Shown here: positions 20,219-61,959 of the stretch, piece after piece
Position numbering within the stretch: position 1 is the first letter of the stretch
Layout: every line of letters starts with the position of its first letter
Assembly (NCBI RefSeq): GCF_007970185.1
Contig: NZ_CP042431.1
Coordinates: 7,113,342 to 7,177,341, forward strand
DNA from: Pseudobacter ginsenosidimutans
GTDB lineage: Bacteria > Bacteroidota > Bacteroidia > Chitinophagales > Chitinophagaceae
Length of the DNA stretch: 64,000 bases
Reading direction: 5' to 3'
Notes under the pieces: model-generated
What the model was told of the DNA's origin: nothing
Seen by the model: the letters and a program-made list of their open reading frames with translations, nothing else
Database searches by the model: none
Position numbers and translations under genes: made by a program

Positions 20219-20380
20219 GGGGTATGCGCAACGCGGCTGATGAAACAAACCGGTGCGGGAGGATTTTTGATGAACTTTTTGTTGGCAGGATTGAGCTGTG
20301 GGATATGGGCCGGGCTTTATCGCTTATGTTTCAAAGGCCGCTTATGCGCATACCCGCTTTGCCATGGGCTGCGTGGAGGT
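20219..20380 (+). repeat. Long-hairpin repeat, copy 1
   Basis: First of four copies. Outer stem GGGTATGCGCA (20220-20230) pairs with TGCGCATACCC (20345-20355). Next inward, GGCTGATGAAACA pairs with TGTTTCAAAGGCC. The loop side holds the shared blocks ACCGGTGCGGGAGGAT and GGCCGGGCTTTATCGCTTA. A 15-bp box, GGGCTGCGTGGAGGT (20366-20380), is also found beside copy 2. It lies between the mqnE terminator and the end of the convergent reductase gene. An 88-codon frame through it is not conserved as protein and is not called. Confidence 0.85.
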
Positions 20381-20423
20381 GTAGCAGTGATGAGTGCTGC
20401 TTTTATTTTTTTTCAATTGGTTT

Positions 20424-20990
20424 CTAGGCAGGCAGGTATTTGTGTAGCACTTTTCCATTTTTATAGGAAGTGGCGCTTTCCAGTTTCAGAATTTTTTGTT
20501 CCCTGAAAATGGGCATGCCTTCTCCGATAGCAACAGGGTTTATGAAGATATAGTATTCATCAATGAGGTTGAGGCTGATGAGAGCGCTTACAAAAGTTGC
20601 GCCGCCATAGACCATGATATTTTTTCCGGATTTTTGTTTCAGTGTATTTACAACAGTAGCCAGATCGCCGTTCTCCACTGTCACGTTGCGGCCTTTGATC
20701 TCTTTCTGTGTACGGCTGAAAATGATCTTGTGATGGTTCACCATCAGCTGCGCCAATGTATTCATGGGGCTTTGCGGCTGGTTGTCTACCACATCTTCCC
20801 AATAGTCTAAGAATTCCCTGCTCATCTTTCTTCCCATCAGAATAGTGTCGCAGCTTTCAGCCAGTTCAATTACACGCTTGAACCCTTCTTCATCCCTTTC
20901 GCCGGATAACCACATCCAGTCTGTTTTACCATCCGGTCTGGCTACATAACCATCGAGGGTCATATTCACCTGCATTAATAACTTACGCAT
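20424..20990 (-). CDS. Dihydrofolate reductase family protein (RibD C-terminal-like)
   Basis: 188 aa from the ATG at 20990; a frame 12 codons longer exists but the chosen start gives the family N-terminus MRKLLMQVNMTLDGYVA. Conserved parts: DGKTDWMW, LMGRKMSREF, HHKIIFSRT, MVYGGATFVSALISLNLIDEYYIFINPVAIGEGMPIF in outline. These NADPH-binding proteins resemble RibD reductase and DHFR, but true folate or riboflavin activity is rarely shown for this subgroup, so the substrate is unknown. The gene is isolated and enclosed by two facing copies of the long-hairpin repeat. Confidence 0.85.
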   Translation of the reverse strand: MRKLLMQVNMTLDGYVARPDGKTDWMWLSGERDEEGFKRVIELAESCDTILMGRKMSREFLDYWEDVVDNQPQSPMNTLAQLMVNHHKIIFSRTQKEIKGRNVTVENGDLATVVNTLKQKSGKNIMVYGGATFVSALISLNLIDEYYIFINPVAIGEGMPIFREQKILKLESATSYKNGKVLHKYLPA

Positions 20991-21216
20991 AGTATCGGTT
21001 TTAATTTTATGATGTTTCAATTCCATTCCAAATATCCGACGGCTTCACAAATCAAAGCGGGTATGAACACGACAGAATAGAGGTGAATTGTGCAAGAACC
21101 TGATCAGTGGAAGATTTTTATCACAACAAAGTGCTGAAGCCTAAAAGAAGCAATAGATGGATGGATGGTTGATGTATGATGGATGAAAGCGTGTCCTGAT
21201 GAACTATAACTACTGA

Positions 21217-21378
21217 ACCTCCACACTGCCCGTCTGAGATGAGGGTATATGAAATAACGGCCTATGAAATGTAAGCGAAGAAGCCCGGCCCCACTACCAC
21301 AGTCCCATCCAATCGATCCAAACCCCAATATATATTCTCCCGCGCCGGTTCATTTCATCAGCCGGATTTCATATACCC
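21217..21378 (-). repeat. Long-hairpin repeat, copy 2
   Basis: Read on the minus strand. Outer stem GGGTATATGAAAT/ATTTCATATACCC (13 bp, perfect; 21243-21255 with 21366-21378) differs in sequence from copy 1 yet is fully complementary. The inner stem is GGCTGATGAAATG / CATTTCATAGGCC, where an A-T change balances the C-G pair of copy 1. Loop blocks ACCGGCGCGGGAGAAT and GGGGCCGGGCTTCTTCGCTTA are shared. The flanking box at 21217-21231 matches 13 of 15 bases of the one beside copy 1. Confidence 0.85.
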
Positions 21379-21391
21379 CATCGAAGCCCTC

Positions 21392-22264
21392 CTACTCCGC
21401 ATCCAACACCCATGTCTGCCGGTATTTCAACCAATCATCCACCATTTCATTCCTGATCGGTGTTGTGAAATAACTCAATCCACTAAGCGTCTTATGCATT
21501 GTTGCCGCTTTATGCACAACCCGGAATCCGCAGCTGTTGAAGAATGCCTCTGCATCATTGTAAGTTTGGAATTTATTATCATTCACATTATGCTCGGCAA
21601 GGAATTCTTTCCATTTATTGTCTTCATGCGTTTGCTTGCCGTTGCCAGGCTCATGGTCAGGATTCTTCAGGTATACGTCACCGGTAATCCAATGGCCGCC
21701 GCGACGCTTGAGGATATTGCGGATGGTGGTACAGAGTGCTCGTTTTTCTTCATCATCCAGGTATACGAGCAACCCTTCGTTCACGATGGTGATGGGACCA
21801 GGCGGAAAGTATTGTAATGCATTTTCAAACTGCACTTCATCCATGGCGTTGAGCGGATGCACATAGAGCTTGCCTTTGCGGTGGACATGATGGATGCGGA
21901 TGAGATCGGTGATAAGACTTTTCTTGTTGCTGGCCGACTCCGGCAGGTCTGTATCGAGATACACTACCGGTTTGTACTGCGCCATTGCAAGACCGCGGCA
22001 ACTGAAGCCTGATGAGAGTTCCAGCACATTGGTGGGATGGAGTATATCCAGGCTTTGGTCGATGGTCTTGTAGCGGTTCTCGAAATGGAGAACGCGTACG
22101 AGGAATGTTTCGGAATGCTGTTGCTGCAAAAGCCGGTCGAATGCTTCCGGATCGAGTATCAGTGCAGCGGTTTCCCGGGCAAAGGGAATGTCTGTCAATG
22201 CCTTCATCAGCAGCAGTACGCGTGCTGATGGACTAATGGTGTTGAAGTTACGTTCTGTAGTCAT
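21392..22264 (-). CDS. Class I SAM-dependent methyltransferase, leucine carboxyl methyltransferase-like
   Basis: 290 aa, cytoplasmic. The SAM-binding glycine-containing loop is VLELSSGFSCRGLAMA, followed by the acidic residue in VVYLDTDLPE; later IVNEGLLVYLDDEEK corresponds to the LCM family's conserved ExLxxYL motif. This resembles the LCM/Tcmp-like O-methyltransferases often annotated as 'involved in polyketide biosynthesis'; no biosynthetic cluster adjoins it, so the acceptor is unknown. It is followed immediately by long-hairpin repeat copy 2 (14 bp from its stop). Confidence 0.85.
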   Translation of the reverse strand: MTTERNFNTISPSARVLLLMKALTDIPFARETAALILDPEAFDRLLQQQHSETFLVRVLHFENRYKTIDQSLDILHPTNVLELSSGFSCRGLAMAQYKPVVYLDTDLPESASNKKSLITDLIRIHHVHRKGKLYVHPLNAMDEVQFENALQYFPPGPITIVNEGLLVYLDDEEKRALCTTIRNILKRRGGHWITGDVYLKNPDHEPGNGKQTHEDNKWKEFLAEHNVNDNKFQTYNDAEAFFNSCGFRVVHKAATMHKTLSGLSYFTTPIRNEMVDDWLKYRQTWVLDAE

Positions 22265-22378
22265 ACCAGTTGTTTTTTAAGAATGAACAACAGGGACCAG
22301 GGCGTCTGGAACGCAACGAAGAATTGGTTGATGTCTGAGAAGGTCAATGGCCAGGAGGCAAACAAACGGCAAGTTCCG

Positions 22379-23806
22379 TTAGCATTCACTCAGGCTGATC
22401 GGTATATGAACAGCCAGTCCGCCTTCAGCGGTCTCCTTGTATTTGAAACTCATATCCCTTGCTGTATCCCACATGGTTCTGATCACACCGTCGAGAGACA
22501 CGCGTGCGAAGTCCGGCGTGCTCTGCAAAGCCAGTTGAGAAGCAGTGATAGCTTTGATAGCGCCCATGGTATTGCGCTCGATGCAGGGGATCTGTACCAG
22601 TCCGGCAATAGGATCGCAGGTGAGGCCAAGGTGGTGCTCCATAGCGATCTCTGCCGCCATCATGGCCTGTCGCTGGCTTCCGCCCTGCGCTTCCGTTAAG
22701 CCGGCAGCAGCCATGGCGGAGGACACACCGATCTCGGCCTGACAGCCACCCATAGCCGCAGAAATGGTAGCCCCTTTCTTGAAGATGCTGCCGATCTCCG
22801 CTGCAGTGAGCATGAACTGTAAGATCCTGTCTTCCTTATATCCGTCGCAGAAGGTCACGAAATATTGTAACACGGCCGGGATCACGCCGGCAGCGCCATT
22901 GGTGGGGGCTGTTACTACCCTGCCGAAAGAAGCGTTCTCTTCATTCACGGCAAGTGCAAAGCAGCTCACCCAGTCAAGTATGTACTGGAATTGTTGTCCA
23001 CCATCACGGATGGCCTGTAACCAGGAATCGTAATCGTGGTAAGTTCTTCCGTTGAGCAGTTTCTTATTGAGGTCTGCCGCACGGCGCTTTACATTCAGTC
23101 CGCCGGGAAGCGTACCCTGTGTATGACAACCGCGGTAGATGCAATCTTTCATCACCTGCCAGATATTGAGCATGCCTGCTTTCGTTTCCGATTCACTGCG
23201 CCAGCTATTCTCGTTTTCCATCACTACTTCGTGAATGGCAAGACCGGTCTTGCGGCACCAATGCAGCAGGTCATCGGCAGTATCCACCGGGAAAGGAAGC
23301 TGAACGGCTGCAGCGCCACCGGCTTCTTCTCCTTCCTGTACAACAAATCCGCCGCCAACAGAATAATAAGTTTCCGCGATCTGTTCTCCATTTTCAAAAG
23401 TGGCGAGACAGGTCATTGCATTGGGATGGAAAGGCAGGCTTTCCGTCATGAGCAATTCTATATCTTCGGCGGGATCGAAATCAATTTCATGGCGTCCGTT
23501 CAGCACCAGCTTTTTCATGGCTGCAATGTCTTTGATCTTGGGTTGGATCTGGTGAACATCGAAGGTTACCGGGTCATCTCCGCAGAGACCCAGTTGAACG
23601 GCGATATCGGTACCGTGGCCCTTGCCTGTTTTGGCGAGGGAACCATACAGCAATACGCGAACGGATACTACATTGAAAATGGACTGACGGGATTCAAGTG
23701 CGCTGAGAAATCGTTGAGCGGCACGCCAGGGGCCCAGTGTATGCGAGCTTGAAGGCCCTACACCGATCTTGAACATATCAAATACTGAGATAGCTTCGTG
23801 TGGCAA
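22379..23806 (-). CDS. sdaA: L-serine ammonia-lyase, iron-sulfur dependent, single chain
   Basis: 475 aa enzyme converting L-serine to pyruvate and ammonia through a [4Fe-4S] cluster. The N-terminal (beta-type) domain opens with [21 protein letters not shown]; the C-terminal (alpha-type) domain has [31 protein letters not shown] and [16 protein letters not shown], which holds cluster cysteines. Both domains are fused as in E. coli SdaA (454 aa). A -7 box TATCTTTG lies 19 bp before the start. The methyltransferase downstream is 115 bp away and probably separate. Confidence 0.95.
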
Positions 23807-23824
23807 GTGATCATCTATTTACTA

Positions 23825-23832
23825 CAAAGATA
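23825..23832 (-). promoter_or_regulatory. -7 element of sdaA promoter
   Basis: On the minus strand TATCTTTG fully matches TAnnTTTG, 18 bp before the start codon, so the leader would be about 12 nt. No convincing -33 was seen. Confidence 0.5.
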
Positions 23833-23851
23833 GCTGAAAAGCGATTCATTC

Positions 23852-24343
23852 CTAACTCACTTCCAGGAGTGTTACTTCGTAGATAATCACGGGAGTATGC
23901 GGGGCAACAAGTACGATGTTCGTGTTCTTGTCTTTCTTCCCTTCCGCGCCGTAGCCAAGTGTGGGAGGTACATAAAAACGGATCCTTCCACCGGGTTTGA
24001 TCAGCGGCAATGCGATCCTCCAGCTTTCCAGCATTAATTTAAGATTAAGAACTACATCATTGCTGCTTTCAAATTCAACGCCGTTCACCAGCTTTCCGGA
24101 GAACCGGACACGGATGCTGGAACAGATCTGGGGAGTCATGCCCATGCCTTCAGAAAGGATTTGATAAAAGAGCCCGCTTGCATGTTCGGTGGCAACGATA
24201 TTGGCCCCACCCAGATAATCCTTCACTGCCTGTTTCTCCGATGCCGGCGCCGTGATATTCCGGGGAGCACAATCATTTTCCTTCTTGAAACATTGGGAAA
24301 ACACCAGCAGTATGGCGCAACAAAGCAGTGCAGTTTTTCGCAT
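23852..24343 (-). CDS. FKBP-type peptidyl-prolyl isomerase, lipoprotein
   Basis: 163 aa. A lipoprotein signal (LLCCAILLVFSQC) is followed by a linker and an FKBP fold: GLFYQILSEGMG, IRVRFSGKLVNGVEFESSNDV, WRIALPLIKPGGRIRFYVPPTLGYG and TPVIIYEVTLLEVS. The usual DGxxFDSS motif appears as NGVEFESS, and several active-site aromatics are changed, so catalytic rate may be low. It probably acts on exported proteins. Gene order with the small membrane-protein gene upstream (46 bp gap) suggests co-transcription. Confidence 0.87.
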   Translation of the reverse strand: MRKTALLCCAILLVFSQCFKKENDCAPRNITAPASEKQAVKDYLGGANIVATEHASGLFYQILSEGMGMTPQICSSIRVRFSGKLVNGVEFESSNDVVLNLKLMLESWRIALPLIKPGGRIRFYVPPTLGYGAEGKKDKNTNIVLVAPHTPVIIYEVTLLEVS

Positions 24344-24389
24344 CGGTTATATTTGGCTGTTGATGAACATATAGACAGTGATTCAAATA

Positions 24390-24743
24390 TTAGTGCTGCA
24401 CCGGGCCATTGACGGAATCCTTCTCTTTATTTTCTCTTTCTTCCCTTGCCTTCAGCTCTCTGTATTGCTGCTCCTTCATGTCCCATTGGTGGCGCTTGTA
24501 AAAGATGGCTACAAAGATGGCGATGATCACTACGCAGATGATCAGCAGGGTGGGACTTAAACTGGCGTTTGCTTCCATATCGGCCCGTACATACCAGTAG
24601 CGGCCGGTGAAAACGATGATGATGATAGGTAACGAAAAAAGCAGTCCGATTGGTATTCCAACCATCAACTGATATTGCCATTTTTTTTCCCTCAACCGGT
24701 TGGCCTCCCAGTATTCAATGAATTGGAGCTCTCTTTCTGTCAT
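24390..24743 (-). CDS. Hypothetical two-transmembrane protein
   Basis: 117 aa with two hydrophobic helices (about 27-46, GIPIGLLFSLPIIIIVF, and 64-82, LLIICVVIIAIFVAIFY) and charged ends; the C-terminal tail (WDMKEQQYRELKAREERENKEK) is likely helical. No catalytic motif. Probably an inner-membrane protein conserved mainly in related Bacteroidota. A TAATTTTG box lies only 5 bp before the ATG, so the message could be nearly leaderless. Confidence 0.75.
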   Translation of the reverse strand: MTERELQFIEYWEANRLREKKWQYQLMVGIPIGLLFSLPIIIIVFTGRYWYVRADMEANASLSPTLLIICVVIIAIFVAIFYKRHQWDMKEQQYRELKAREERENKEKDSVNGPVQH

Positions 24744-24747
24744 ATCG

Positions 24748-24755
24748 CAAAATTA
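24748..24755 (-). promoter_or_regulatory. -7 element before the two-TM protein gene
   Basis: TAATTTTG on the minus strand is a full match to TAnnTTTG. It is so close to the start codon that transcription would begin at or near the ATG. Confidence 0.4.
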
Positions 24756-24804
24756 CGGCCTGCCTTGCTTCTTTGTTTGCATACCAACAATTTATGTTTA
24801 ACTT

Positions 24805-25740
24805 GTGCCAAATAAAATCCATCATATCTTGAAATTTGCCGTTCTACTAGCGAAATACTTCTACACTAAAAAACACCTGGCCCTGCCCGGCATCGGTGTA
24901 CTCCACCTGGACGCCGCAGTAACCGTTCCTGATTTCAGCGACAAAAATTTCAGGGAAGTATTGAAGTACATACAGTTCACACAGAAGAATATTGCAAAAG
25001 CAGATGATGAACTGATCGACTTTATCCGCACACAAACAGGAAAGATCAGGCCACTCGCGGAATCCGACCTGGAATCCTACCTGGCAGACGGCAAACTGTT
25101 ACTGAACATCGGCAAACCTTTCACTATTGAAGGCATCGGGTCTCTGCAGAAAATGAAATCCGGCGACCTGATCTTCACTCCCGGTGAGCCCACCATCGAG
25201 AAACTGGATTTCCATACAGAAGATAAAACACCCGATAAATCCGTCAGGCATATTCCTGGCTATGATGAGAGCCAGTCCAGGCACACAGTCCATAATAACC
25301 AGCGCCGCGTACTGCTGGTAGGCACGCTCGTTGTGATCGGACTGATCGTGATCCTCTGGGGTGGTTACAGCCTGTACAACAAAGCCGATAACCAGCCTGC
25401 ACAGGTATCATCCGAGGTGAATACGCCTATCACCAATCCTGACTCCACCACCATCCGGCAACCCGACAGCAATATAACTGAACAGCCTGCTGTAGCGGCA
25501 ACTCCTCCCGGAACCTATAAATTCATTTTCGAGAAAACAGACAGGAAAGCAAGAGCCCTCAGAAGGTTTGCTTTTGTGCACGATCTCAGCCCGCGCATAC
25601 AGATGGAGACAAGCGATTCCCTCAACTTCACCATCTTCGTGCGCCTCTCTGCCATGTCAACCGATACCGGCAGGCTGAAAGATTCACTGAATGCCTGGTA
25701 CTACGGCACCAAGCCTGTTAAAGTGATGATCGAGCCTTAG
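24805..25740 (+). CDS. Membrane protein with N-terminal HU/CCDC81-like domains
   Basis: 311 aa from a GTG start. Residues 1-140 contain two HU-like units of the CCDC81 prokaryotic type: TKKHLALPGIGVLHL, then ADGKLLLNIGKPFTIEGIGSLQKMKSGDLIFTPGE. A single membrane helix follows (VLLVGTLVVIGLIVILWGGY, about 170-190), then a Thr/Pro-rich linker and a C-terminal domain (about 235-311) that may be SPOR-like, a peptidoglycan-binding fold. The layout puts an HU fold in the cytoplasm and a wall-binding-like domain in the periplasm. Its last 23 bp overlap the end of the convergent permease gene. Confidence 0.8.
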   Translation: MPNKIHHILKFAVLLAKYFYTKKHLALPGIGVLHLDAAVTVPDFSDKNFREVLKYIQFTQKNIAKADDELIDFIRTQTGKIRPLAESDLESYLADGKLLLNIGKPFTIEGIGSLQKMKSGDLIFTPGEPTIEKLDFHTEDKTPDKSVRHIPGYDESQSRHTVHNNQRRVLLVGTLVVIGLIVILWGGYSLYNKADNQPAQVSSEVNTPITNPDSTTIRQPDSNITEQPAVAATPPGTYKFIFEKTDRKARALRRFAFVHDLSPRIQMETSDSLNFTIFVRLSAMSTDTGRLKDSLNAWYYGTKPVKVMIEP

Positions 25741-27157
25741 TTTTCGATTTCCTGAAATACAGGTATAGCGGTGCTCCCAGCGCAGTGATCACCAGCCCCA
25801 GCAATGAATTGATAACGGGTGTTTGACCCGCATTGTATTTGTTTATATCGTTCATGATGGTGCTGATCACATAGAAAGCGGCAAAGCCGATGAACAGCAA
25901 TGGCACCAACGGGTATCCCCAAACCCTGTAGGGACGAGGATGATCGGGCATCTTCCTTCTCAATACAAATACGCCGATCGCTCCGAAAGTATATGCCACC
26001 CAGGCTACGAACACGAACATATCCGCCAGCATATCGAAACTGCCGCTCACTACTAACACCGATGCCCATACGCAGTGCAGCCATAATGCATTGCCCGGCG
26101 TTCCATACTTCGTATGTTCCTTACCGGTAAAAGCGAAAAAGAGACGGTCCTTTCCCATTGCATAGGTTACCCTCGCTTCTGTCATCGTATTTCCATTGAT
26201 AGCCCCGAATGTGCAGATCACGATCATGGCCGCCACAATGGCGCCACTGGTTTCACCGAGTGCAATGGCGATAGCATCAGCCGCCACCAGTGAAGAGGCG
26301 GACATCCGGTCTACCGGCAACACATAGAGATAGGCCTGATTCACCAGGAGATAAATGATAACGCAGGACAACAAACCCATCAGCAAACTCCGGGGAATAT
26401 TGCGTTGTGGATCTTTGATCTCCCCTCCTACAAATGTTACATTCACCCAGCCATCATAGGCCATGAAAGCACCTGTGAGCGCAGCTACCAGTCCTCCTGC
26501 CAGTTGCCATCCCTCTTTCGGATTGGCGGAAGGCTGAACAAAATGTTGTACGCTTCCATTACCGCTCAGGAAGATGCCGAACACCAGCAGGATGATCACA
26601 CCTACTTTGATCATTGTACTCACCACCTGCACGATGCCGCCCGCTTTCACGCTACGGTAATTGAGCCAGGTAAGCCCCACTATCAATGCAATGGCCAGAG
26701 ATTTCACGCCGGCATTTTCCAAAGGATATAAATTGCCAAGCAAGGGGATATGCCAGACCACGGCTTTCTCTGTGGCTTCAGCAAATTGCGGTAACTGTAA
26801 AAAGAAATCGGCATATTGCGCACACACGAATGAGATAGCCGAAACAGCAGCCGTATTGATCACGGCAAAACCTGCCCAGCCATACATGAAGGCAAAGAAA
26901 TCGCCGAACATTTTCTGGAAATAGATATAGAGCCCGCCGGTTTGCGGGAACATCGCTCCCACTTCCGCATAGATGAGCCCACCTATCAGCGAGAGCAGTC
27001 CTGCCACTACCCAGACCAGTGCCAGCCAAACCGGCGAAGCCGTCTGTGCGGCCATGGTAGCCGGTTTCATGAATACGCCCGAACCGATGATACTGCCCAC
27101 CACAATACTGGTGGCTGACCAGAACCCAAGCATCCGGCGCGCTGAAGGAATAGCCAT
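25718..27157 (-). CDS. Amino acid permease (APC superfamily)
   Basis: 479 aa, about 12 membrane helices. The family's first helix signature GFWSATSIVVGSIIGSGVFMKP holds the GSGVF substrate loop, and EVGAMFPQTGGLYIYFQ follows. Sequence style (LAT/amino acid exchanger group: FMAYDGWVNVTFVGGEIKDPQRNIP) suggests an amino acid transporter or exchanger in the inner membrane; the substrate is not evident. It starts 12 bp after the Rieske gene's stop on the same strand, so the two may form a transcription unit. Confidence 0.92.
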   Translation of the reverse strand: MAIPSARRMLGFWSATSIVVGSIIGSGVFMKPATMAAQTASPVWLALVWVVAGLLSLIGGLIYAEVGAMFPQTGGLYIYFQKMFGDFFAFMYGWAGFAVINTAAVSAISFVCAQYADFFLQLPQFAEATEKAVVWHIPLLGNLYPLENAGVKSLAIALIVGLTWLNYRSVKAGGIVQVVSTMIKVGVIILLVFGIFLSGNGSVQHFVQPSANPKEGWQLAGGLVAALTGAFMAYDGWVNVTFVGGEIKDPQRNIPRSLLMGLLSCVIIYLLVNQAYLYVLPVDRMSASSLVAADAIAIALGETSGAIVAAMIVICTFGAINGNTMTEARVTYAMGKDRLFFAFTGKEHTKYGTPGNALWLHCVWASVLVVSGSFDMLADMFVFVAWVAYTFGAIGVFVLRRKMPDHPRPYRVWGYPLVPLLFIGFAAFYVISTIMNDINKYNAGQTPVINSLLGLVITALGAPLYLYFRKSKTKARSSL

Positions 27158-27169
27158 AGCTGTATCGGT

Positions 27170-28255: not shown

Positions 28256-28303
28256 AAGGGGAAGGTTGTAAATGAAATATACTACCTTAATACGATAAAA
28301 CCA

Positions 28304-28909: not shown

Positions 28910-28914
28910 GCCTT

Positions 28915-29562: not shown

Positions 29563-29617
29563 AGCAAGGGTTTCTTAGAGGATCATAAGTTACATATTTC
29601 TTTGGGAAAAGGGTAAA

Positions 29618-29646
29618 TAAAAAACGCATCGTTGGAAACGATGCGT
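29618..29646 (-). terminator. Terminator of the Gld/MutS-like operon
   Basis: Stem ACGCATCGTT / AACGATGCGT with a 3-nt loop; on the minus strand it is followed by TTTTATTTACCC. It lies 215 bp beyond the last MutS-like gene, so the intervening small open frame would be part of the transcript. Confidence 0.85.
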
Positions 29647-29669
29647 AGTAATCAACTGATCAGTTGCAT

Positions 29670-29846: not shown

Positions 29847-29860
29847 TCAGTCAACTTTGA

Positions 29861-31189: not shown

Positions 31190-31200
31190 AATTTTTATAT

Positions 31201-32532: not shown

Positions 32533-32534
32533 TT

Positions 32535-46970: not shown

Positions 46971-46987
46971 CAAAAATGGCTGGCCTG

Positions 46988-51594: not shown

Positions 51595-51617
51595 CGTTCA
51601 TCAACAAATTCAGCATT

Positions 51618-53363: not shown

Positions 53364-53372
53364 GAAAATCAG

Positions 53373-53963: not shown

Positions 53964-53967
53964 CTCG
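53959..53967. repeat. Target-site duplication of the IS256-family element (left; right copy 55265-55273)
   Basis: GTTAACTCG occurs at both borders of the element, 9 bp, within the 8-9 bp usual for this family. The exact match shows that the insertion has not been followed by rearrangement. Confidence 0.88.
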
Positions 53968-55264
53968 AGAGTATTACAAAAAGTGTGTCAGTAAAAAGTT
54001 TAATAACTTTAAACTGGCAACATGGAAAAGAAAAACTTTGATTTCGAGAGCTTCAAGAAGCAGGCAACAAGTCGTTTGAAGAACGGCGAAAGCCTTTTAG
54101 GTAAGGATGGAGTACTCACCCCATTGCTGAAAGAGTTCCTGGAAGGGGCTCTGGATGGGGAACTGGAAGCTCATTTAGAGGAAGATCCTGCAGAGAACAA
54201 TCGTAAGAATGGCAAAGGCCGCAAACAGGTAAAGACTTCGATTGGTACTGTAGACATCAACCCACCGCGTGATCGCAATGGCAGCTTCGAGCCGGAGCTG
54301 ATTCCCAAAAGACATAAGACGTTAGGAGTAGATCTGGACCGCCAGATTATAGCCTTATATGCTCGTGGAGCAAGCTATAGTGATATTCGGGACCATCTGA
54401 TGGATATGTATGGCCTGGAAGCCTCCACAGCAACCATCAGCCGTGTTACTGATAAAATTCTTCCCCTGATCCAGGAGTGGCGCAGTCGTCCATTGGAGCG
54501 GGTCTATCCGTTTGTATGGCTGGATGCCATTCATTACAAGGTTCGTCATGAAGGTCGTGTGGTAAGTCGTGCTGTCTATTGCATTATCGGCCTCACTCAG
54601 GAAGGGTACAAGGAACTGCTGGGTATGTACATCGGAGAAAATGAAGGTGCAAAATTCTGGCTGCAGGTACTTACTGATCTGCAAAACCGAGGTCTGGAAG
54701 ATATTTTCATTGCCTGTATTGATAACCTGACTGGCTTTGCCGATGCTATCGAGAGTGTGTTTCCGAAAACAGAAGTCCAGTTATGTATTGTGCACCAGGT
54801 CCGCAATTCTCAAAAATATCTCTCTTACAAAGACCTCAAGCCTTTTATGAAAGACTTGCAAAACGTCTACAAAGCAACTACCATAGAACTGGCGGAACGC
54901 AGCCTTGATCAGCTGGAATCCAACTGGGGAGAGCGTTATCCGAAGGTTATCGAATCCTGGAGAAAGAACTGGCCCAGACTGAGCAACTACTTCCAGTATA
55001 ACAAAGATGTTCGAAGGATCATGTACACCACTAACATCATTGAAGGCTTCCATCGTCAACTAAGAGCTGTCACCAAATCAAAAGGCGCCTTCCAATCGGA
55101 AGACGCCCTAATGAAGCTTTTATTCCTGGTGCAGGAAAATATATGTGCCAGGTGGAATAAGCCTGTCCACAACTGGAACCAGACATTGGCTCAATTATCC
55201 ATTATCTTTAGTGATAGATTAAAACTCAATCTTTAAAAAGTGACACACTTAATGTAACACTACC
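53968..55264 (+). mobile_element. IS256-family insertion sequence, complete (1297 bp)
   Basis: Ends carry imperfect inverted repeats: left AGAGTATTACAAAAAGTGTG continuing TCA (53968-53990); right, on the other strand, AGTGTTACATTAAGTGTGTC continuing A, ending at 55264. One transposase gene fills the element. It sits between the hypothetical gene at 53373 and the bidirectional terminator at 55285. Size, repeat type and target duplication all fit IS256. Confidence 0.92.
54022..55236 (+). CDS. IS256-family transposase
   Basis: 404 aa mutator-type transposase. The DDE triad can be placed at Asp168 (FVWLDAIHYKVR), Asp234 (FIACIDNLTGFADAI) and Glu341 (TTNIIEGFHRQLR); the C-x2-H motif is CIVHQVRNS. 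The N-terminal region has the family's ELEAHL segment and a helical DNA-binding part (YARGASYSDIRDHL). The frame is uninterrupted, so the element is potentially active. Confidence 0.97.
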   Translation: MEKKNFDFESFKKQATSRLKNGESLLGKDGVLTPLLKEFLEGALDGELEAHLEEDPAENNRKNGKGRKQVKTSIGTVDINPPRDRNGSFEPELIPKRHKTLGVDLDRQIIALYARGASYSDIRDHLMDMYGLEASTATISRVTDKILPLIQEWRSRPLERVYPFVWLDAIHYKVRHEGRVVSRAVYCIIGLTQEGYKELLGMYIGENEGAKFWLQVLTDLQNRGLEDIFIACIDNLTGFADAIESVFPKTEVQLCIVHQVRNSQKYLSYKDLKPFMKDLQNVYKATTIELAERSLDQLESNWGERYPKVIESWRKNWPRLSNYFQYNKDVRRIMYTTNIIEGFHRQLRAVTKSKGAFQSEDALMKLLFLVQENICARWNKPVHNWNQTLAQLSIIFSDRLKLNL

Positions 55265-55284
55265 GTTAACTCGTTACAAACAAA

Positions 55285-55320
55285 AAAACTCCGGCAGCGC
55301 TTACGCATTGCCGGAGTTTT
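55285..55320. terminator. Bidirectional terminator
   Basis: Stem AAAACTCCGGCA/TGCCGGAGTTTT (12 bp) with A and T runs on both sides. It originally lay between the convergent hypothetical gene (53373) and the aminotransferase gene; the IS element now separates it from the former. Confidence 0.88.
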
Positions 55321-55338
55321 ATCTTTATAAAAAGTCTC

Positions 55339-56529
55339 TTACTTCAATTTAGCCAGCGCTGCGCTGATCCTCTTCCACCCTTCTTCGATCTTCTCCATGC
55401 TGTTCGCAAAAGAGATCCGGATACAGGTTGGCTCACCAAATGCACGGCCGGTAACTGTAGATACATGTGCATTGTTGAGAATATACATACAAAGATCATC
55501 GGCATCCTTGATAGTTTCGTTGCCATCGGATTTACCGAAATAGCTGCTCACGATCGGGAATACGTAGAAAGCACCATCGGGCTCAGCCAGTTCCAGACCA
55601 GGAATTGCGGCGATGATCTCCAGTACACGCTTCTTTCTTCTTGCGAACTCTTCCACCATAATCTCCGTGGGACGCAGATCAGAAGTGAGCGCCACGATAG
55701 CAGCACGCTGCGTAATGCTGTTGGTGCCGCTGGTGAATTGTCCCTGGAGTTTTTCGCATGCTTTCACCACATCAGGGTGTGCAGCTACATATCCGAGACG
55801 GTAGCCGGTCATGGCGAAACCTTTGCTCAGACCATTGAGAACGATCACACGATCTTTCAGGTCTTCGAACTGTGCGATGCTCTCGTGTTTACCCACGAAG
55901 TTGATGTATTCATAGATCTCATCGGAGAGGATGAATACATTGGGGAATTTGCGGAATACTTCTGCCAGTCCTTCCAGTTCGGCTTTGCTGTACACTGAAC
56001 CGCTGGGGTTACAGGGAGAAGAAAAGATGAACAGTCTTGTTTTATCGGTGATCGCTGCTTCGAGTTGAGCAGGCGTGATCTTGTATTTATTTTCAACGGA
56101 AGTGGAAACGAGTTTGCAAACACCTTCGCCCAGCTTCACAATTTCAGAGTAGGTAACCCAGTAAGGAGTTGGGATCACCACTTCATCCCCTTTGCTCACA
56201 GTAGCGAGTACCACGTTGGCCAGGCTTTGCTTGGCGCCGGTAGAAACGATGATGTTCTCAGGTTTGTAATCCAGGTTATTGTCGCGCTTCAGCTTGAAAC
56301 AAACCGCTTCACGCAGATCGGGGTAACCTGCTACAGGCGTGTAGTGGCTGTAGTTGTCGTCAATAGCTTTCTTCGCTGCCTCTTTGATGTGTTCAGGGGT
56401 ATCGAAATCGGGTTCGCCCAAACTCAGGTCAATTACATCGAAGCCTTTGGCGCGCAGTTCGCGGCCGAGCTTTGCCATTTTCAACGTCTCTGGCTCGTTG
56501 AAAAGGTTCAATCGGGATGATAGTTGCAT
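55339..56529 (-). CDS. aspC: Pyridoxal-phosphate aspartate aminotransferase
   Basis: 396 aa fold-type I, class I aminotransferase. Landmarks: DLSLGEPDFDTPEHI, STGAKQSLANV (phosphate cup), PYWVTYSEIV, SPCNPSGSVYSKAE, SDEIYEYINF and the PLP lysine in GLSKGFAMTGYRLGY (about residue 236); the terminal Arg lies in CIRISFANS. This subgroup (AspB/AspC of Gram-positive and Bacteroidota type) moves amino groups between aspartate and 2-oxoglutarate; related activities such as prephenate cannot be excluded. Confidence 0.93.
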   Translation of the reverse strand: MQLSSRLNLFNEPETLKMAKLGRELRAKGFDVIDLSLGEPDFDTPEHIKEAAKKAIDDNYSHYTPVAGYPDLREAVCFKLKRDNNLDYKPENIIVSTGAKQSLANVVLATVSKGDEVVIPTPYWVTYSEIVKLGEGVCKLVSTSVENKYKITPAQLEAAITDKTRLFIFSSPCNPSGSVYSKAELEGLAEVFRKFPNVFILSDEIYEYINFVGKHESIAQFEDLKDRVIVLNGLSKGFAMTGYRLGYVAAHPDVVKACEKLQGQFTSGTNSITQRAAIVALTSDLRPTEIMVEEFARRKKRVLEIIAAIPGLELAEPDGAFYVFPIVSSYFGKSDGNETIKDADDLCMYILNNAHVSTVTGRAFGEPTCIRISFANSMEKIEEGWKRISAALAKLK

Positions 56530-56562
56530 AATGTTTGTCTGTTGCTTGCTTTACGTGAGACG

Positions 56563-56570
56563 CAAAAGTA
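56563..56570 (-). promoter_or_regulatory. -7 element of aspC promoter
   Basis: TACTTTTG on the minus strand matches TAnnTTTG and lies 34 bp before the start codon. The -33 box is not evident. Confidence 0.5.
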
Positions 56571-56602
56571 AGGCATAACGTTCAATCGGACTTTCGGATT
56601 TC

Positions 56603-57937
56603 TTACTTATCGTACAACAATTTGAACTCATTCAAATCAGGGGCGTTTTTCCTGCTTCTTTTTAATTCATATTCATAAATCACGCGTCCGAGCTGCTTCA
56701 TGAAAGGAAATCCGATGGTCTCATAATCATATTGACTATCGTTGAACACACCATCTTTATTGGCAAGGATGGTGGCGGAGAGCATGAATTCGATATTCCT
56801 GTCGAAGTCTGCGAAGTAGGCTGCATCTACCAGGAAGCCATAAGCGTCGCCAATCTTATTGAAGATGCGGAACTGTTTGGGCAGGCTGCCTTTTTCCGCT
56901 CCGTAATAAAGGTATTTGGCGTAAGCGTCCTGGAAGCTGGTATCGTAGGGCGGGTACACGCTTTCCTGCGGGTACTGGCTCATGTATTTCCACACGAAAC
57001 GATAATCATCGGCATCGATATTGAATCGTTGCTGTTCGCTCACGGCCTGCGGGAACAGGATGGCTTTGAGAATGCCGGTAAGGTCTTCGAGGCTGATGCG
57101 GTTCTTTCTTGAAAAATCGAAGGGCTGCTTCACCAGTTGTCCGTTGCGCTCGAATCCGGTGCCGAGGAAATCATGACGGGCCAGTGGCGCGAGGGCGCTT
57201 ACCTGCATGGGTTGATGGAAGAGCGTGTCGCCGGCGGGACCGAAAAAGGTAACAGGATTGGTATGACGATTTTCATCCTGCGACATCACCACTTCAAGGT
57301 GATGGATGATCTCGGTGGAACTGTATCCCTTCTTTCGAAGTTCTTCATTGAGGTATTGTTGTCCAAGGAATTCATACAGACGATTATACGCATCATTATC
57401 ACTTACCATAAAGATCTTCCGGATGTATTGGGCGATATTGGGTTTGCCGTCCGGTGTGGTGGGATCATTGAACACAGGCGTTTGCCGGCTGTAAGCGCTA
57501 TCGGTCACCATGGTGGTGAACTTGTTCACTCCCGGCAGTTTCATTTCGTGTAGCTTTTGCAGTGCGAGCAATGCCGTTGGCATTTTGACCGTACTGGCCG
57601 GGTAAAAGTACCGGTTGGGGTCCACCTGGTAATAATATGGAGTGAAAACCGGCATGTTGTTGGGGCCGCGATCGATCTGCGTATAGATGATCTGCACCCG
57701 GTAATCATCGGGTTTACGCAGAATGGAATCGAAATACTGCGGGTATTGCTGTAAAATGGACAGGAGCAGGGAGTCCGTCTTCCCGCTTGGTATTTCAGCC
57801 GGTAATACAGGCGGGGGCTGGGTTGCAGCGGCTTCTTCAATGCGTTTTTCGGACAGCTTCTGTATCTCTTTCTGTTGTTTGCATGACAAAAAAAGATAAG
57901 AGGATAAGCAAATCAGAGCCAGAACACGTATTTTCAT
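56603..57937 (-). CDS. Serine hydrolase with class A beta-lactamase-like fold, lipoprotein
   Basis: 444 aa. After a lipobox (YLFLSC) and linker, the catalytic domain shows YPASTVKMPTAL (SxxK, about residue 115), SDNDAYNRLY (SDN) and KIGDAYGFLVDAA (KTG-like box with Ile in place of Thr). This combination is found in beta-lactamase-like and DD-peptidase-like serine hydrolases; the long spacer regions and lipid anchor argue against a typical secreted beta-lactamase. It may act on peptidoglycan or another amide or ester in the periplasm. Divergent from secDF. Confidence 0.85.
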   Translation of the reverse strand: MKIRVLALICLSSYLFLSCKQQKEIQKLSEKRIEEAAATQPPPVLPAEIPSGKTDSLLLSILQQYPQYFDSILRKPDDYRVQIIYTQIDRGPNNMPVFTPYYYQVDPNRYFYPASTVKMPTALLALQKLHEMKLPGVNKFTTMVTDSAYSRQTPVFNDPTTPDGKPNIAQYIRKIFMVSDNDAYNRLYEFLGQQYLNEELRKKGYSSTEIIHHLEVVMSQDENRHTNPVTFFGPAGDTLFHQPMQVSALAPLARHDFLGTGFERNGQLVKQPFDFSRKNRISLEDLTGILKAILFPQAVSEQQRFNIDADDYRFVWKYMSQYPQESVYPPYDTSFQDAYAKYLYYGAEKGSLPKQFRIFNKIGDAYGFLVDAAYFADFDRNIEFMLSATILANKDGVFNDSQYDYETIGFPFMKQLGRVIYEYELKRSRKNAPDLNEFKLLYDK

Positions 57938-58065
57938 TGCCGAAAATTACAAAATCCACGCAAAGTTTGATAACAGTTGCAGGTCATATTGAAATTGGTT
58001 CAGAAATGCCCGGAATCCCCGTCCGGACAGGAGTTAGAAACCCCTCTGGCAGCCTGATTTTCGTA

Positions 58066-58096
58066 TTTCCGATTCTGCCTGAAAACCCTATCTTTG
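58066..58096 (+). promoter_or_regulatory. Promoter of secDF
   Basis: TATCTTTG (58089-58096) with TTT (58066-58068) 20 bp upstream. The TTG at 58094 is part of the -7 box and cannot be the translation start; the ATG at 58127 follows a leader of about 24 nt. Confidence 0.65.
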
Positions 58097-58126
58097 CCAA
58101 CTCCTAAAAAAATAAACAACACTGAA

Positions 58127-61100
58127 ATGAGAGCACTGGTTAGCATTTTTACTGCCCTTTTAATAGGCATCTCGCTGTACCAGCTTTCTTTTACCTGGTT
58201 CGTGAACAAGCACGAAAAGGCCATGGGTGAGAAAGCCTTGCAGCAGATCAAAAGAGCCTACCCTACAGCCGCTACGAAGTTCCCGGGCGACAAAGAAGCT
58301 GCTGCCCTTTACCAGGACACTCTGGACCAACTGCTGAGAAAACGCAAGCAGGAACTGCTTGACAGCACTGCCGACACCAAGATCACATGGTGGGGACAGA
58401 CTTACCAGAAAGCTAAAGAAAGCGAACTGAGACTTGGTCTCGACCTTCAGGGTGGTATCAACGTAACACTCGATATCGCACTGGATGGACTGATCAAAGG
58501 CCTTGCCAACAATCCCAAAGATCCTCAGATCGTAAAAGCTATTGAAAGAGCTAACCAGTTAAAGCTGAATAGTGACCAGAACTATATCGCTCTCTTCGCC
58601 ACTGCTTTCAAGGAAGTGAATGCCGGTGCCCGCATGGCTCCTCATTTCGCCAATCCAAATAACAAACTCGCCAATACTGCATCCGATAACCAGGTTACCA
58701 CCTTTATCAATGAGCAGGCGAACAACGCAATGGCTCAGACCTACGAGGTACTGAGAAAGCGTATCGATAAATTCGGTGTAGCTCAACCTACCATTTCACT
58801 GGATGAGACCAAAGGTATCATCACTGTGGAACTGGCCGGCGCCAGCGATCCCGAGCGTGTAAGGAAATACCTGCAATCAACTGCCAACCTGCAATTCTGG
58901 GAAGTATACACCCTGGAACAGATCGCAGGCTCACTGCAGGCTGCCGACAAAACACTCGAAGGCTACCTCGCCGGTGGCAATAAAGTGGACTCACTCGGCA
59001 ATATCATACCTGATACTACCAGCTCTGCAAAAGTGGACTCATCCAAAATGAATCCTCTCTTCCAGAAACTGTTCCCTGCACAACCACAACAGGACCCAAC
59101 ATCTGGCCGCGTTGTATATTCCAACTTCATCGGAACATCCCGTCTGCAGGATACAGGTGCCGTGAACAGCTACCTGGCCATCCCTGCGGTACGCAATAAC
59201 TTCCCCGGCAATATCAAATTCCTCTGGGGCAAACAGGAAAGGAATGCCAATGGCACCCTGATCCCCGCCCTCAACCTCTACGCTATCAAAACCATCCCTG
59301 GTAAAGAAGGCGCAGAACTGGAAGGCGAAGCCATCGAAGATGCCAAACAGGAATTCGACCCCGTTACCAACGAGGTTCTGGTTACCATGACCATGACCCC
59401 TGCGGGCGCCAGCACCTGGGCGCGTATGACTGAAAAGAATATCGGTAAGTCGATTGCCATCGTACTGGACGATATCGTTTATACAGCACCGAATGTTCAG
59501 CAAAAGATCGATGGTGGCAGCTCACGCATCACCATGGGCCGCGGCACTCAAAATCGTCAGCTCGTGATCGAAGAAGCACAGGACATCTCCAGTATCCTGA
59601 AATCAGGTAAACTGGAAGCTCCTGCCAAGATCGTTCAGGAACAAGTGGTAGGACCTACCCTCGGTCAGGCTGCCGTTAAAGGTGGTATACTTTCTTTCGC
59701 CATCTCTTTCGCAGTGATCTTCCTGCTGATGATCGTTTATTACAACACCGGCGGCTGGGTGGCTAATATCGCCCTCATCCTCAACCTGCTCTTCACTGTG
59801 GGTGTGCTCAGTGCCATGGGCGCTACGCTCACTGCTCCGGGTATCGCAGGTCTGGTACTCACCATCGGTATCGCGGTAGACACCAACGTACTGATCTTCG
59901 AACGTATCAAGGAGGAACTTACCAAAGGCAAGAGCTACCAGCAGGCTGTGATCGATGGCTACAAGCGCTCCATGGCGCCTGTGTTCGACGCCCACATCAC
60001 CAACCTGTTGACCGCTATCATCCTTTTCTACTTCGGTCTCGGTCCTGTACTCGGTTTCGCTACCACTCAGATCATCGGTATCATCCTGTCGCTCTTCTGC
60101 GGTATCCTGGTATCAAGACTGATCAGCGATTTCTGGACAAGAAAGAACCGTCACTTCAACTATTTCACTCCGCTGAGCCGTAAAGTGTTCAAGCATGCTG
60201 CTTACAAGTTCATCGAACTGCGTAAGAAAACCTATATGGTATCCTTCGTGATCCTCGCATTGGGTATCGGCGCGCTGATCAACGGTTTCAAATATGGTGT
60301 AGAATTCTCCGGTGGCCGCAGCTACGTGGTGAAATTCGATAAACCCACCAACCCCGAGCAGGTACGCGTTGCCCTCGAGCACGCCTTCCAGGCAACTCCG
60401 GTTGTTAAGACTTATGGTGCTACCAACCAGCTGGACATCACTACCGACTATATGATCGAGCAGGCTGGAACTGCCGGCGACTCTGTAGTGCTGAACAAAC
60501 TGTACGACGGCCTGAAGCCCTTCCTGAAAGAAGGAGCCACTCATGAAGACTTCAACACCAAATATGTTCAGGGCTTCAAACGCGTTGACGCCACCATCTC
60601 CGATGACCTGAAAAAAGGCGCTCAGTGGGCCACCTTCTGGAGCTTGTTCATCATCGCAGCGTATATCCTTCTCCGTTTCCGCGACTGGAGGTATTCACTC
60701 GGAACCATCGTAGGTCTGTTGCACGACGTACTGGTTACCCTGGCAGTATTCTCCTTCCTGAAAGACGTGATGCCATTCTCACTGGAAGTTGACCAGCACT
60801 TCATTGCTGCGATCCTGACGGTGATCGGCTTCTCGATGAACGACAAGGTGATCGTGTTCGACCGGATCCGCGAATACAGCCGCGAAATGATCGGTGCCGA
60901 CAAGACCACCATCATCAACAAAGCGATCAACGATACCCTGAGCCGTACCATTATGACATCCTTCACTGTGTTCCTGACCATCCTGATCCTCTTCCTGGTA
61001 GGTGGTGAGGTAACCAAAGGTTTCGCATTCGCGATGCTGATCGGTGTACTGACTGGTGTGTATTCTTCTATCTTTGTATCTGCTCCGATCCTGGTTGACT

Positions 61101-61192
61101 TTGGAAAAGACAAACCACTGGGTGAAGTTCCCAAAGCAAATACAGCATCAACTCCGGTAAAACCGAAAGCGCCTGTTGCCAGGAAAGCATAA
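58127..61192 (+). CDS. secDF: Protein translocase SecDF (fused SecD and SecF)
   Basis: 1021 aa, twelve-helix inner-membrane protein that uses the proton gradient to pull proteins through SecYEG. SecD part: LRLGLDLQGGINVTLDI, the large P1 head (about 100-500), then GPTLGQAAVKGGILSFAISFAVIF and AVDTNVLIFERIKEEL. SecF part begins about residue 690 with FKYGVEFSGGRSYVVKF and includes GFSMNDKVIVFDRIREYSRE. Fusion into one chain is usual in Bacteroidota. Start chosen from the promoter position and the MRALVSIFTALLIGISLYQL helix. Confidence 0.97.
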   Translation: MRALVSIFTALLIGISLYQLSFTWFVNKHEKAMGEKALQQIKRAYPTAATKFPGDKEAAALYQDTLDQLLRKRKQELLDSTADTKITWWGQTYQKAKESELRLGLDLQGGINVTLDIALDGLIKGLANNPKDPQIVKAIERANQLKLNSDQNYIALFATAFKEVNAGARMAPHFANPNNKLANTASDNQVTTFINEQANNAMAQTYEVLRKRIDKFGVAQPTISLDETKGIITVELAGASDPERVRKYLQSTANLQFWEVYTLEQIAGSLQAADKTLEGYLAGGNKVDSLGNIIPDTTSSAKVDSSKMNPLFQKLFPAQPQQDPTSGRVVYSNFIGTSRLQDTGAVNSYLAIPAVRNNFPGNIKFLWGKQERNANGTLIPALNLYAIKTIPGKEGAELEGEAIEDAKQEFDPVTNEVLVTMTMTPAGASTWARMTEKNIGKSIAIVLDDIVYTAPNVQQKIDGGSSRITMGRGTQNRQLVIEEAQDISSILKSGKLEAPAKIVQEQVVGPTLGQAAVKGGILSFAISFAVIFLLMIVYYNTGGWVANIALILNLLFTVGVLSAMGATLTAPGIAGLVLTIGIAVDTNVLIFERIKEELTKGKSYQQAVIDGYKRSMAPVFDAHITNLLTAIILFYFGLGPVLGFATTQIIGIILSLFCGILVSRLISDFWTRKNRHFNYFTPLSRKVFKHAAYKFIELRKKTYMVSFVILALGIGALINGFKYGVEFSGGRSYVVKFDKPTNPEQVRVALEHAFQATPVVKTYGATNQLDITTDYMIEQAGTAGDSVVLNKLYDGLKPFLKEGATHEDFNTKYVQGFKRVDATISDDLKKGAQWATFWSLFIIAAYILLRFRDWRYSLGTIVGLLHDVLVTLAVFSFLKDVMPFSLEVDQHFIAAILTVIGFSMNDKVIVFDRIREYSREMIGADKTTIINKAINDTLSRTIMTSFTVFLTILILFLVGGEVTKGFAFAMLIGVLTGVYSSIFVSAPILVDFGKDKPLGEVPKANTASTPVKPKAPVARKA

Positions 61193-61221
61193 TATCATAT
61201 CACTTGTTGATTATATTTTAG

Positions 61222-61250
61222 AGCCCCGGTTTTGCCGGGGCTTTTTTTTG
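61222..61250 (+). terminator. Rho-independent terminator of secDF
   Basis: Stem AGCCCCGG/CCGGGGCT, loop TTTTG, followed by T7. It lies 29 bp after the secDF stop and 22 bp before the next long-hairpin repeat. Confidence 0.93.
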
Positions 61251-61271
61251 TGGTGTTGCAGGCCGGGATCG

Positions 61272-61406
61272 GGGGATGGTGAAGTCGGGCTGATGAAACA
61301 AACCGGCGCATTTGTTGGTTATCTGAGCTATGGATTGGAAGGGTTGGGCTGTAGTAATGCTATGATCTTCTTCGCTTATGTTTCATAGGCCCTTTTCCCC
61401 ATCCCC
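61272..61406 (+). repeat. Long-hairpin repeat, copy 3
   Basis: Outer stem GGGGATGG-TGAAG-TCGGGC (61272-61290) pairs with GCCCTTTTCCCCATCCCC (61389-61406), again unlike copies 1 and 2 in sequence. The inner stem GGCTGATGAAACA / TGTTTCATAGGCC is as in copy 1. Shared loop blocks are AAACAAACCGGCGC, GGGTTGGGCTGTAGTA and CTTCTTCGCTTATG; the GGGAG box seen in the others is missing here. Confidence 0.83.
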
Positions 61407-61499
61407 GCGCTCCCGGCCCCTTCCGCATAGGCATCATTGTTAGCCCGGCATTTTTTTGAAATACTAAGAGCTGCTCTCTTCTTATCAGTAACATATCAG

Positions 61500-61690
61500 C
61501 AATCAAAAAGCAACCGGCAGCAATAAGCCTGCTTTCAACCAACATTTAACCAACAATCAACAAGCAATTAATTGGCAACGCATCAGCTACATTTTCACCA
61601 ATCAGTCTTCAATAAGCCTGCTAACAATCAGCAACACATCAAACATTAACCAACCAATCAATCAATCAACCAATCAATCAACCACTATCC
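61500..61690. repeat. G-poor region with (AATC)n-type microsatellite and a 13-bp direct repeat
   Basis: The stretch between repeat copies 3 and 4 is rich in CAAC/CAAT/AATC units, purest at about 61648-61684. CAATAAGCCTGCT occurs twice (61521-61533, 61610-61622). No open frame, promoter or RNA gene is recognised. Strand skew is strong (very few G on the plus strand). Confidence 0.7.
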
Positions 61691-61809
61691 TCCTCAGGCA
61701 CCCAATGCAACATTTACTTCGGGTGATGCACTTTTCCCCATCCCCCCTCTCCTTTTTTATTGAGTGAGTGGAAGAATGGGGACAATTGGTGTTACACGTC
61801 CGGGGAGGT

Positions 61810-61959
61810 GGGCGCAAAGTGATATGCAGTGGCGGTCCAGGAAACATAAGCGTAAAAGCCCGGCCGGGCACCACAGCCCAACCCCACCAATCAAAAGCTC
61901 AACCAACATTCTCCCGCGCCGGTTTGTTTCCCAACCGCCCCTGCATATCCTTTGCGCCC
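61810..61959 (-). repeat. Long-hairpin repeat, copy 4
   Basis: Longest outer stem: GGGCGCAAAG-GATATGCAG on one side matches its complement on the other (61810-61829 with 61940-61959) with one bulge, and pairing continues through GGCGGT and GGAAACA/TGTTTCC. In this copy the GGCTGATGAAAC stem has become GGTTGGGAAAC, with matching changes opposite. Loop blocks CCGGCGCGGGAGAAT and GGCCGGGCTTTTACGCTTATG are kept. Minus orientation, facing copy 3. Confidence 0.83.

Follow-up and report, generated by a model that had tools for sequence, protein, structure and literature searches.

Four long hairpins in a Pseudobacter genome

We analysed a 64,000-nt stretch of the genome of Pseudobacter ginsenosidimutans (family Chitinophagaceae; contig NZ_CP042431.1, positions 7,113,342 to 7,177,341 of the forward strand), hereafter called the window, which carries four copies (c1–c4) of a long hairpin repeat that a preliminary description had picked out from the letters alone. 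The four copies were confirmed at their places (Table 1); dinucleotide-shuffled versions folded far more poorly, and the fold of each copy beat all of its 200 shuffles (0/200 as good). By these predicted folds the hairpins are 145–162 nt long, and their stems extend farther outward than first described. The four are arranged as two inverted pairs, c1/c2 and c3/c4, a point on which the preliminary description is silent. All four had been placed at the 3′ ends of genes, which is true of c1, c2 and c3, lying downstream of a radical SAM gene, a gene without a Pfam match and secDF, respectively, but for c4 no co-oriented open reading frame (ORF) of ≥80 aa was called immediately upstream.

Each hairpin consists of a variable outer stem (up to 20–28 bp in the folds inspected), a small internal loop with AAG on one side and TG(n), the common form, or CGA on the other, an inner stem centred on GAAACA/TGTTTC, and an apical region of approximately 75–82 nt, in which the blocks ACCrGCGCGGGAGrAT near the start and CTTnTTCGCTTA near the end recur. 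The common core blocks and the balanced exchange of AAAC/GTTT for AAAT/ATTT seen earlier in the inner stem are real. The outer stems are indeed unlike, but rather than being four unrelated sequences they appear to have diverged from a loose consensus, approximately GCAAAGGGATATGAAAA, read by eye in this genome. Motif finding showed a T-tract 5′ of many copies and a tail motif, GAAnGTGCAnCAGT, approximately 15–20 nt 3′ of many copies.

Table 1. Hairpins and associated features (window coordinates unless a genome position is given; R1 is the covariance model described below, and R1 matches are positions in contig C1 of the own genome, G000)
Feature	Position	Strand	Remarks
Hairpin c1	20211..20365	+	Left member of pair 1; fold z −5.76; R1 match G000:C1:7133562-7133694:+
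Hairpin c2	21238..21382	-	Right member of pair 1; fold z −4.47; R1 match 7134586-7134718:-
Hairpin c3	61265..61414	+	Left member of pair 2; fold z −4.19; R1 match 7174614-7174745:+
Hairpin c4	61803..61964	-	Right member of pair 2; fold z −6.40; R1 match 7175161-7175292:-
c1 3′ tail motif	20378..20388	+	GGTGTAGCAGT (family form GAAnGTGCAnCAGT); motif recurs in the 3′ flanks of copies
c2 3′ tail motif, decayed	21209..21219	-	GGTTCAGTAGT; GGTGCATCAGT in P. rhizosphaerae (ortholog alignment)
c3 3′ tail	61425..61439	+	Same letters in P. rhizosphaerae (ortholog alignment)
c4 3′ tail motif	61788..61797	-	GTGTAACACC; kept in ortholog
Intrinsic terminator of the gene upstream of c1	20171..20205	+	Immediately 5′ of c1; sequence and terminator detection (L150 LE)
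Intrinsic terminator of secDF	61220..61249	+	Immediately 5′ of c3; sequence and terminator detection (L151 LE)
Pair 1 spacer	20366..21237		Contains RibD_C gene 20424-21026 (minus); aligns with a like arrangement in P. rhizosphaerae
Pair 2 spacer	61415..61802		No complete internal ORF of ≥80 aa; in P. rhizosphaerae both ends kept, centre absent
Y1_Tnp gene, own genome	G000:C1:7347186-7347515		Syntenic at loci L160-L165 in all six genus genomes

Copy number, pairing and gene context

In the 7.8 Mb genome of P. ginsenosidimutans, copy 1 as a blastn query found 40 matches, and a covariance model (R1) built from 30 of them gave 116 matches at E ≤0.1, bearing out the suggestion that many copies might exist. 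After removal of one match as an opposite-strand shadow, 115 copies were kept, a few of them weak (24–40 bits), occupying 77 sites, of which 39 hold a single copy and 38 a pair. Every one of the 38 close pairs is inverted (+ then −), with the 3′ ends toward the spacer and gaps of 117–891 nt. The same orientation was found in all 21 pairs lying within 2.5 kb in a second carrier of the genus (G001), 20 of them separated by ≤400 nt. The usual unit is an inverted pair, composed of hairpin, short tail, 0.1–0.9 kb spacer, tail and hairpin. Members of doublets score above singles (median 104.6 vs 88.4 bits, p 0.0009), and a renewed search of the 77 loci with 3 kb flanks did not provide any single with a convincing partner: the only two new matches other than strand shadows scored 13.8 and 10.6 bits. 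The spacer of pair L083 includes an ORF of 226 aa. That the pairs might be autonomous elements was rejected on the one spacer gene searched against protein families, that of pair 1, which is a RibD_C gene whose region aligns at the orthologous site.

A sense terminator lies within 100 nt 5′ of 42 of the 115 copies, compared with 3 of 115 for antisense terminators and 4.4% of random windows, while a sense terminator with a T-run occurs in the 3′ flanks of 11 of 115. The hairpin itself was therefore not taken to be an intrinsic terminator. By a crude ORF call, the 38 pairs lie between convergent (19), tandem (15) or divergent (4) genes. The convergent half would suit a bidirectional transcription barrier, in which the RNA must fold from either strand to halt read-through between neighbours, and such a both-strand need would likewise equalise the G·T and A·C mismatches considered below. 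We nevertheless regard this explanation as quite improbable, given the 15 tandem and 4 divergent pairs, the scarcity of 3′ terminators with a T-run, and the fact that termination does not require a patterned loop of 75 nt.

Distribution across genomes

Searching 39 genomes, including that of P. ginsenosidimutans, with R1 at E ≤0.01 gave four positives, all within the genus. A second model (R2), built from 17 copies of G001, found 59 copies in that genome, also recognised the type of P. ginsenosidimutans, and was positive in 4 of 294 Chitinophagaceae genomes under stricter filters. The G001 copies constitute a diverged subfamily, with inner stems such as AAAACAGG/CCTGTTTT and AAATGTG/CACATTT. 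Two further carrier species have at least 87 copies each; we take G004 to be Pseudoflavitalea rhizosphaerae and G002 to be BIN25, a metagenome-assembled genome of Chitinophagaceae. Among the non-carrier members of the genus, R1 at E ≤1 gave only weak matches: one of 14.5 bits in G005 and three in G003, the best of these scoring 19.7 bits at E 0.015. Two of the three in G003 were folded and were unlike the element, and R2 gave none there at E ≤0.1. A pattern scan of a set of 84,980 species genomes, which may not contain the genome of the window, recovered 26 stretches, exclusively from P. rhizosphaerae and BIN25.

Horizontal spread on phages or plasmids was rejected, as copy 1 matched none of 50,697 phage and 72,556 plasmid records. 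The family had gone unrecognised in the preliminary description, and no Rfam model matched the window at its gathering threshold; three matches in other loci (L001, L254 and L266) had E values of 0.1–0.66, far under gathering. The literature searches made, which cover the open-licence part of PubMed Central (PMC), brought up no description of the family. The carriers are a small group of soil bacteria within one genus, and the family is genus-restricted.

Inheritance at shared sites

All 20 G004 stretches examined, which were picked from the best-scoring matches listed, correspond by their flanks to element loci of P. ginsenosidimutans (87–92% identity). At one of them the P. ginsenosidimutans counterpart is a 73-base fragment, and at another a single copy in P. 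ginsenosidimutans is a pair in G004. The same correspondence was found for 8 of 9 BIN25 loci and 17 of 26 G001 loci (flank identity approximately 65–91%, a few via one flank only). Since most examined sites are shared between species, the elements are now vertically inherited in place. Most G001 hairpins at corresponding loci belong to the other subtype. Two copies in G001 have the P. ginsenosidimutans type, each partnered with a G001-type hairpin.

At loci L123 and L119, flanks and tails align among P. ginsenosidimutans, P. rhizosphaerae and BIN25. The outer arms of BIN25 at L123 are altered jointly on both sides, and one hairpin at L119 has an identical TA difference in both arms between P. 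ginsenosidimutans and P. rhizosphaerae. By a hand count, 15 BIN25 copies stand at shared sites, and 6 of them are closer to another P. ginsenosidimutans copy than to the one at the same site. The gene neighbourhood of L110 exists without hairpins in G003 and G005. As a separate observation, the intergenic region that holds the hairpin pair in P. ginsenosidimutans is occupied in G005 by another repeat (CACAAAGGCACGAAGG and its inverse).

Evolution of stems and loops

For the comparison of orthologous copies, 60 of 93 aligned rows were kept after removal of overlapping P. rhizosphaerae duplicates, opposite-strand shadows and one end-truncated row; leaving out two doubtful rows as well as 17 from BIN25 gave 41 pairs between P. 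ginsenosidimutans and P. rhizosphaerae, of which 36 were usable for the stem, loop and flank rates, 29 and 36 for the two-sided test, and 34 for a finer division. Poor parses, namely the automatic outermost-pair parse and the strict-anchor parse (115 of 199 copies), were kept out of the statistics, and alignment A5 (28 of 199 copies), one column out of register, was excluded.

Substitution rates were 5.5% in stems, 17.6% in loops and 15.6% in flanks. In the finer division they were 1.3% in the inner stem, 5.7% in the outer stem, 10.6% in the 5′ flank, 22.4% in the loop middle, 11.6% in the apical start, 5.6% in the apical end and 13.5% in the tail. Gaps amounted to 8.5% in the 5′ flank, 0 in the apical start and 0.9% in the tail. 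Stems are thus clearly constrained; constraint on the apical start and the tail is less clear. Two-sided changes that preserve Watson-Crick pairing numbered 11 and 13 with P. ginsenosidimutans and P. rhizosphaerae as the reference, respectively, against null means of 0.76 and 0.94 and null maxima of 4 and 6 over 2000 permutations. Compensation therefore occurs in place, not merely among paralogs. In alignment A6, for which 17 copies with clean pairing were picked when 26 of the eventual 59 in G001 had been found, a choice that biases its per cent paired upward, the helix tables contain 95 two-sided cells, compared with 36.4 in shuffles, and 7 one-sided cells. The stem covariation noticed in the four window copies thus survives the addition of more sequences; a lack of further copies and a lack of covariation had been named as outcomes that would speak against the preliminary description, and neither came about.

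Covariation is usually taken as proof of a functional RNA, and the preliminary description had left open whether a folded RNA or a hairpin DNA was selected. At positions flanked on each side by three Watson-Crick pairs, G·T and A·C mismatches inside stems numbered 31 and 29 in P. ginsenosidimutans and 14 and 19 in its relatives; such positions also held 1093 Watson-Crick pairs and 110 other mismatches in the former and 601 and 61, respectively, in the latter. Because G·T and A·C are equally rare, the wobble test speaks against RNA and favours constraint at the DNA level, and the evidence on the earlier question leans toward DNA.

A structured RNA, that is, a small RNA or 3′-untranslated-region element that is conserved at numerous loci and whose apical core serves as a binding site, is accordingly an explanation that we hold to be unlikely. 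It would account for the strong stem covariation, both in A6 and among the P. ginsenosidimutans/P. rhizosphaerae orthologs, for the conserved apical blocks and recurrent internal loop, and for the location of sites close to gene 3′ ends; at one site in three species, the tail is followed by a terminator-like second hairpin with a T-run. It fits poorly with stems that show no wobble preference (RNA would be expected to tolerate G·U over A·C on one strand), with intrinsic terminators that stand more often 5′ than 3′ of the element, with the lack of an Rfam match, and with 115 diverged copies in a single genome. In appearance, the hairpins are closer to a DNA-level element than to an RNA gene.

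Two-sided changes are concentrated in few copies (p 0.0016; 19 changes counted, two of them non-Watson-Crick), a pattern expected if several bases are copied in one event or if another copy converts the hairpin. PMC8794818 reports that template switching creates, fixes, maintains and repairs hairpin stems, and the copies could in principle be functionless relics of an extinct mobile family whose stems stay paired solely through template switching between arms. The clustering would agree with this, as would the apical start and tail, whose substitutions are not slower than those of the 5′ flank. By our reasoning, however, unbiased arm copying should leave divergence unlowered, yet the outer and inner stems diverge less than the 5′ flanks; the copies also persist at sites common to four species, and we consider a complete lack of function improbable.

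Loop cores are more alike within pairs than between them (0/1000 permutations for the 38 pairs of P. ginsenosidimutans; 5/5000 for 8 of the G001 pairs), as local exchange would leave, whereas outer arms are no more alike within pairs (736/1000 and 3206/5000 permutations, respectively). The members of the G001 pair L266/L258 are identical over a run of approximately 60 bases spanning inner arm and loop, beneath unlike outer stems. Overall, stems remain paired while their sequence shifts, the loop middle varies faster, and loop cores resemble each other inside pairs.

A Y1 transposase-like gene

The preliminary description had proposed that many copies together with a tyrosine transposase associated with repetitive extragenic palindromic (REP) sequences (RAYT) would favour an origin as REP sequences or miniature inverted-repeat transposable elements (MITEs). 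The copies are many, but the candidate transposase does not follow them. A full-length Y1_Tnp match was found once per genome in all six genus genomes, including non-carriers, with weaker partial matches in three, and the six loci align across nearly the entire 3.3 kb. Within approximately 1.5 kb flanks of nine Y1 loci, R1 gave nothing beyond a chance match of 5.9 bits (E 1.7). A RAYT as the specific mobiliser was therefore rejected, the gene being syntenic, present in non-carriers and not flanked by elements. In G005, its neighbours are presumably genes for DAHP synthase and aroB, judging from their sequences.

Interpretation and comparison with known systems

The reading that we favour, at a probability of about 0.55, is a clade-restricted, REPIN-like family of long DNA hairpins at dispersed sites, which were probably mobile in the past and are now anchored; copying from arm to arm, selection or both would keep their stems paired. 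The unit would formerly have moved, favouring T-tracts just past gene terminators. Pairing of the stems may be upheld by arm-to-arm template switching at replication together with selection for a DNA hairpin or cruciform, and the site recognised by a putative protein partner would comprise the inner stem together with the apical motifs and the internal loop (TGn or CGA opposite AAG).

Several observations weigh against this reading. The Y1_Tnp search of the six genus genomes gave just the syntenic gene and partial matches, and thus no mobiliser was found. Single copies make up 39 of the 77 sites, and an upstream terminator was undetected for 73 of the 115 copies. One of nine BIN25 loci (L187) and 9 of 26 G001 loci match no element locus of P. 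ginsenosidimutans. L110, the one outgroup site inspected, is too diverged in G003 and G005 for its junction to be read, and neither a clean empty site nor a target duplication was shown. The apical start (11.6%) and tail (13.5%) are slower than the 5′ flank (10.6%) in gaps only. The wobble test rests on a general expectation for RNA in place of a known RNA as control, and one-sided changes to G·T and A·C lean both ways, at 10 vs 16 and 24 vs 17 with P. ginsenosidimutans and P. rhizosphaerae as the reference, respectively, and 9 vs 6 in outer stems. In A6, moreover, neither the number of pairs with a two-sided change (17 vs 14.8; 51/500 shuffles) nor that of pair types (44 vs 38.5; 19/500 shuffles) is extreme.

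Among known systems, the family behaves most like REPINs, which are described in PMC3116915 as inverted doublets of REP sequences in Pseudomonas fluorescens SBW25. By that description, the likeness extends to high copy number, mostly intergenic location, inverted doublets, a variable spacer, hairpins in single-stranded DNA, and singles that are less conserved than doublets. In contrast, the members here are hairpins of 145–162 nt with a patterned apical region of approximately 75–82 nt, compared with 20–40 bp given for REP sequences in PMC3733652; spacers reach 0.9 kb and can contain a gene; no elements lie within approximately 1.5 kb of the Y1 gene; and most sites examined are common to several species. 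A GTAG or CGTC tag at one end is a further REP trait; in the present family, motif finding gave the 5′ T-tract and the 3′ GAAnGTGCAnCAGT. We did not file the family as REPINs because two REP features, the short palindrome and the flanking RAYT, fail.

Bacterial stem-loop repeats also include ERIC and YPAL. Such repeats resemble the present family in being non-coding, of similar size and hairpin-capable, as do MITEs, for which PMC3733652 gives sizes of 70–300 bp (e.g., NEMIS); here, however, no terminal inverted repeat of a known insertion sequence (IS) was found, though no IS comparison was made, no target duplication was shown, and the stems covary rather than hold a fixed terminal sequence. 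Subclass 2.6 of TnpA-Y1, as described in PMC6006769, likewise occurs in Bacteroidetes and has unusual secondary structures that recur elsewhere in the genome, but there atypical structures flank the tnpA gene, whereas R1 found none at the Y1 gene here, the motif of which looks nearer to subclass 1.2, described in the same source as generally without atypical structures. As for integron attC sites, which go with an integrase gene, a cassette array and R and L boxes, the scattered sites here do not suggest an array.

A more speculative possibility, which we put forward with considerable doubt, is that the paired DNA hairpins form a resident, vertically inherited system in which a host protein reads the apical core as folded DNA at scores of chromosomal sites. 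The turnover of cores genome-wide between species at shared sites would then fit co-evolution of sites and protein, and cores that bind a protein would amount to a chromosome-wide structured DNA site. Strong covariation without a wobble signature makes the family a natural test case for the upkeep of palindromes at the DNA level, and the sites shared by four species allow copying from arm to arm to be traced, as well as the exchange of loops between the two hairpins of a pair.

Additional sequence features

The apical loop is G+T-rich in P. ginsenosidimutans and P. rhizosphaerae, and four close GG tracts were found on the sense strand of 72 of the 115 P. ginsenosidimutans copies and on the antisense strand of none, suggesting a possible two-tetrad G-quadruplex. 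The pattern exceeded shuffled sequences in P. ginsenosidimutans (72/115, against a mean of 36 and a maximum of 48) and P. rhizosphaerae (30/42, against 12.4 and 20), and did not do so in BIN25 (6/16, against 3.6 and 8) or G001 (10/30, against 7.4 and 13). The G-quadruplex was therefore dropped as a family-wide feature.

In the right hairpin of L123, the tail and an inverted copy of it on its 3′ side make up, with a T-run, a terminator-like hairpin that is kept in P. ginsenosidimutans, P. rhizosphaerae and BIN25. Short tandem duplications of outer-arm sequence, or of the 5′ half of the element, adjoin some hairpins of P. ginsenosidimutans (L138, L098, L159 and L157). At the position of the presumed catalytic Tyr of the Y1 gene, G005 has Tyr (YIQKQEEHH) and the other five genomes have Phe, the G003 sequence having been translated by eye.

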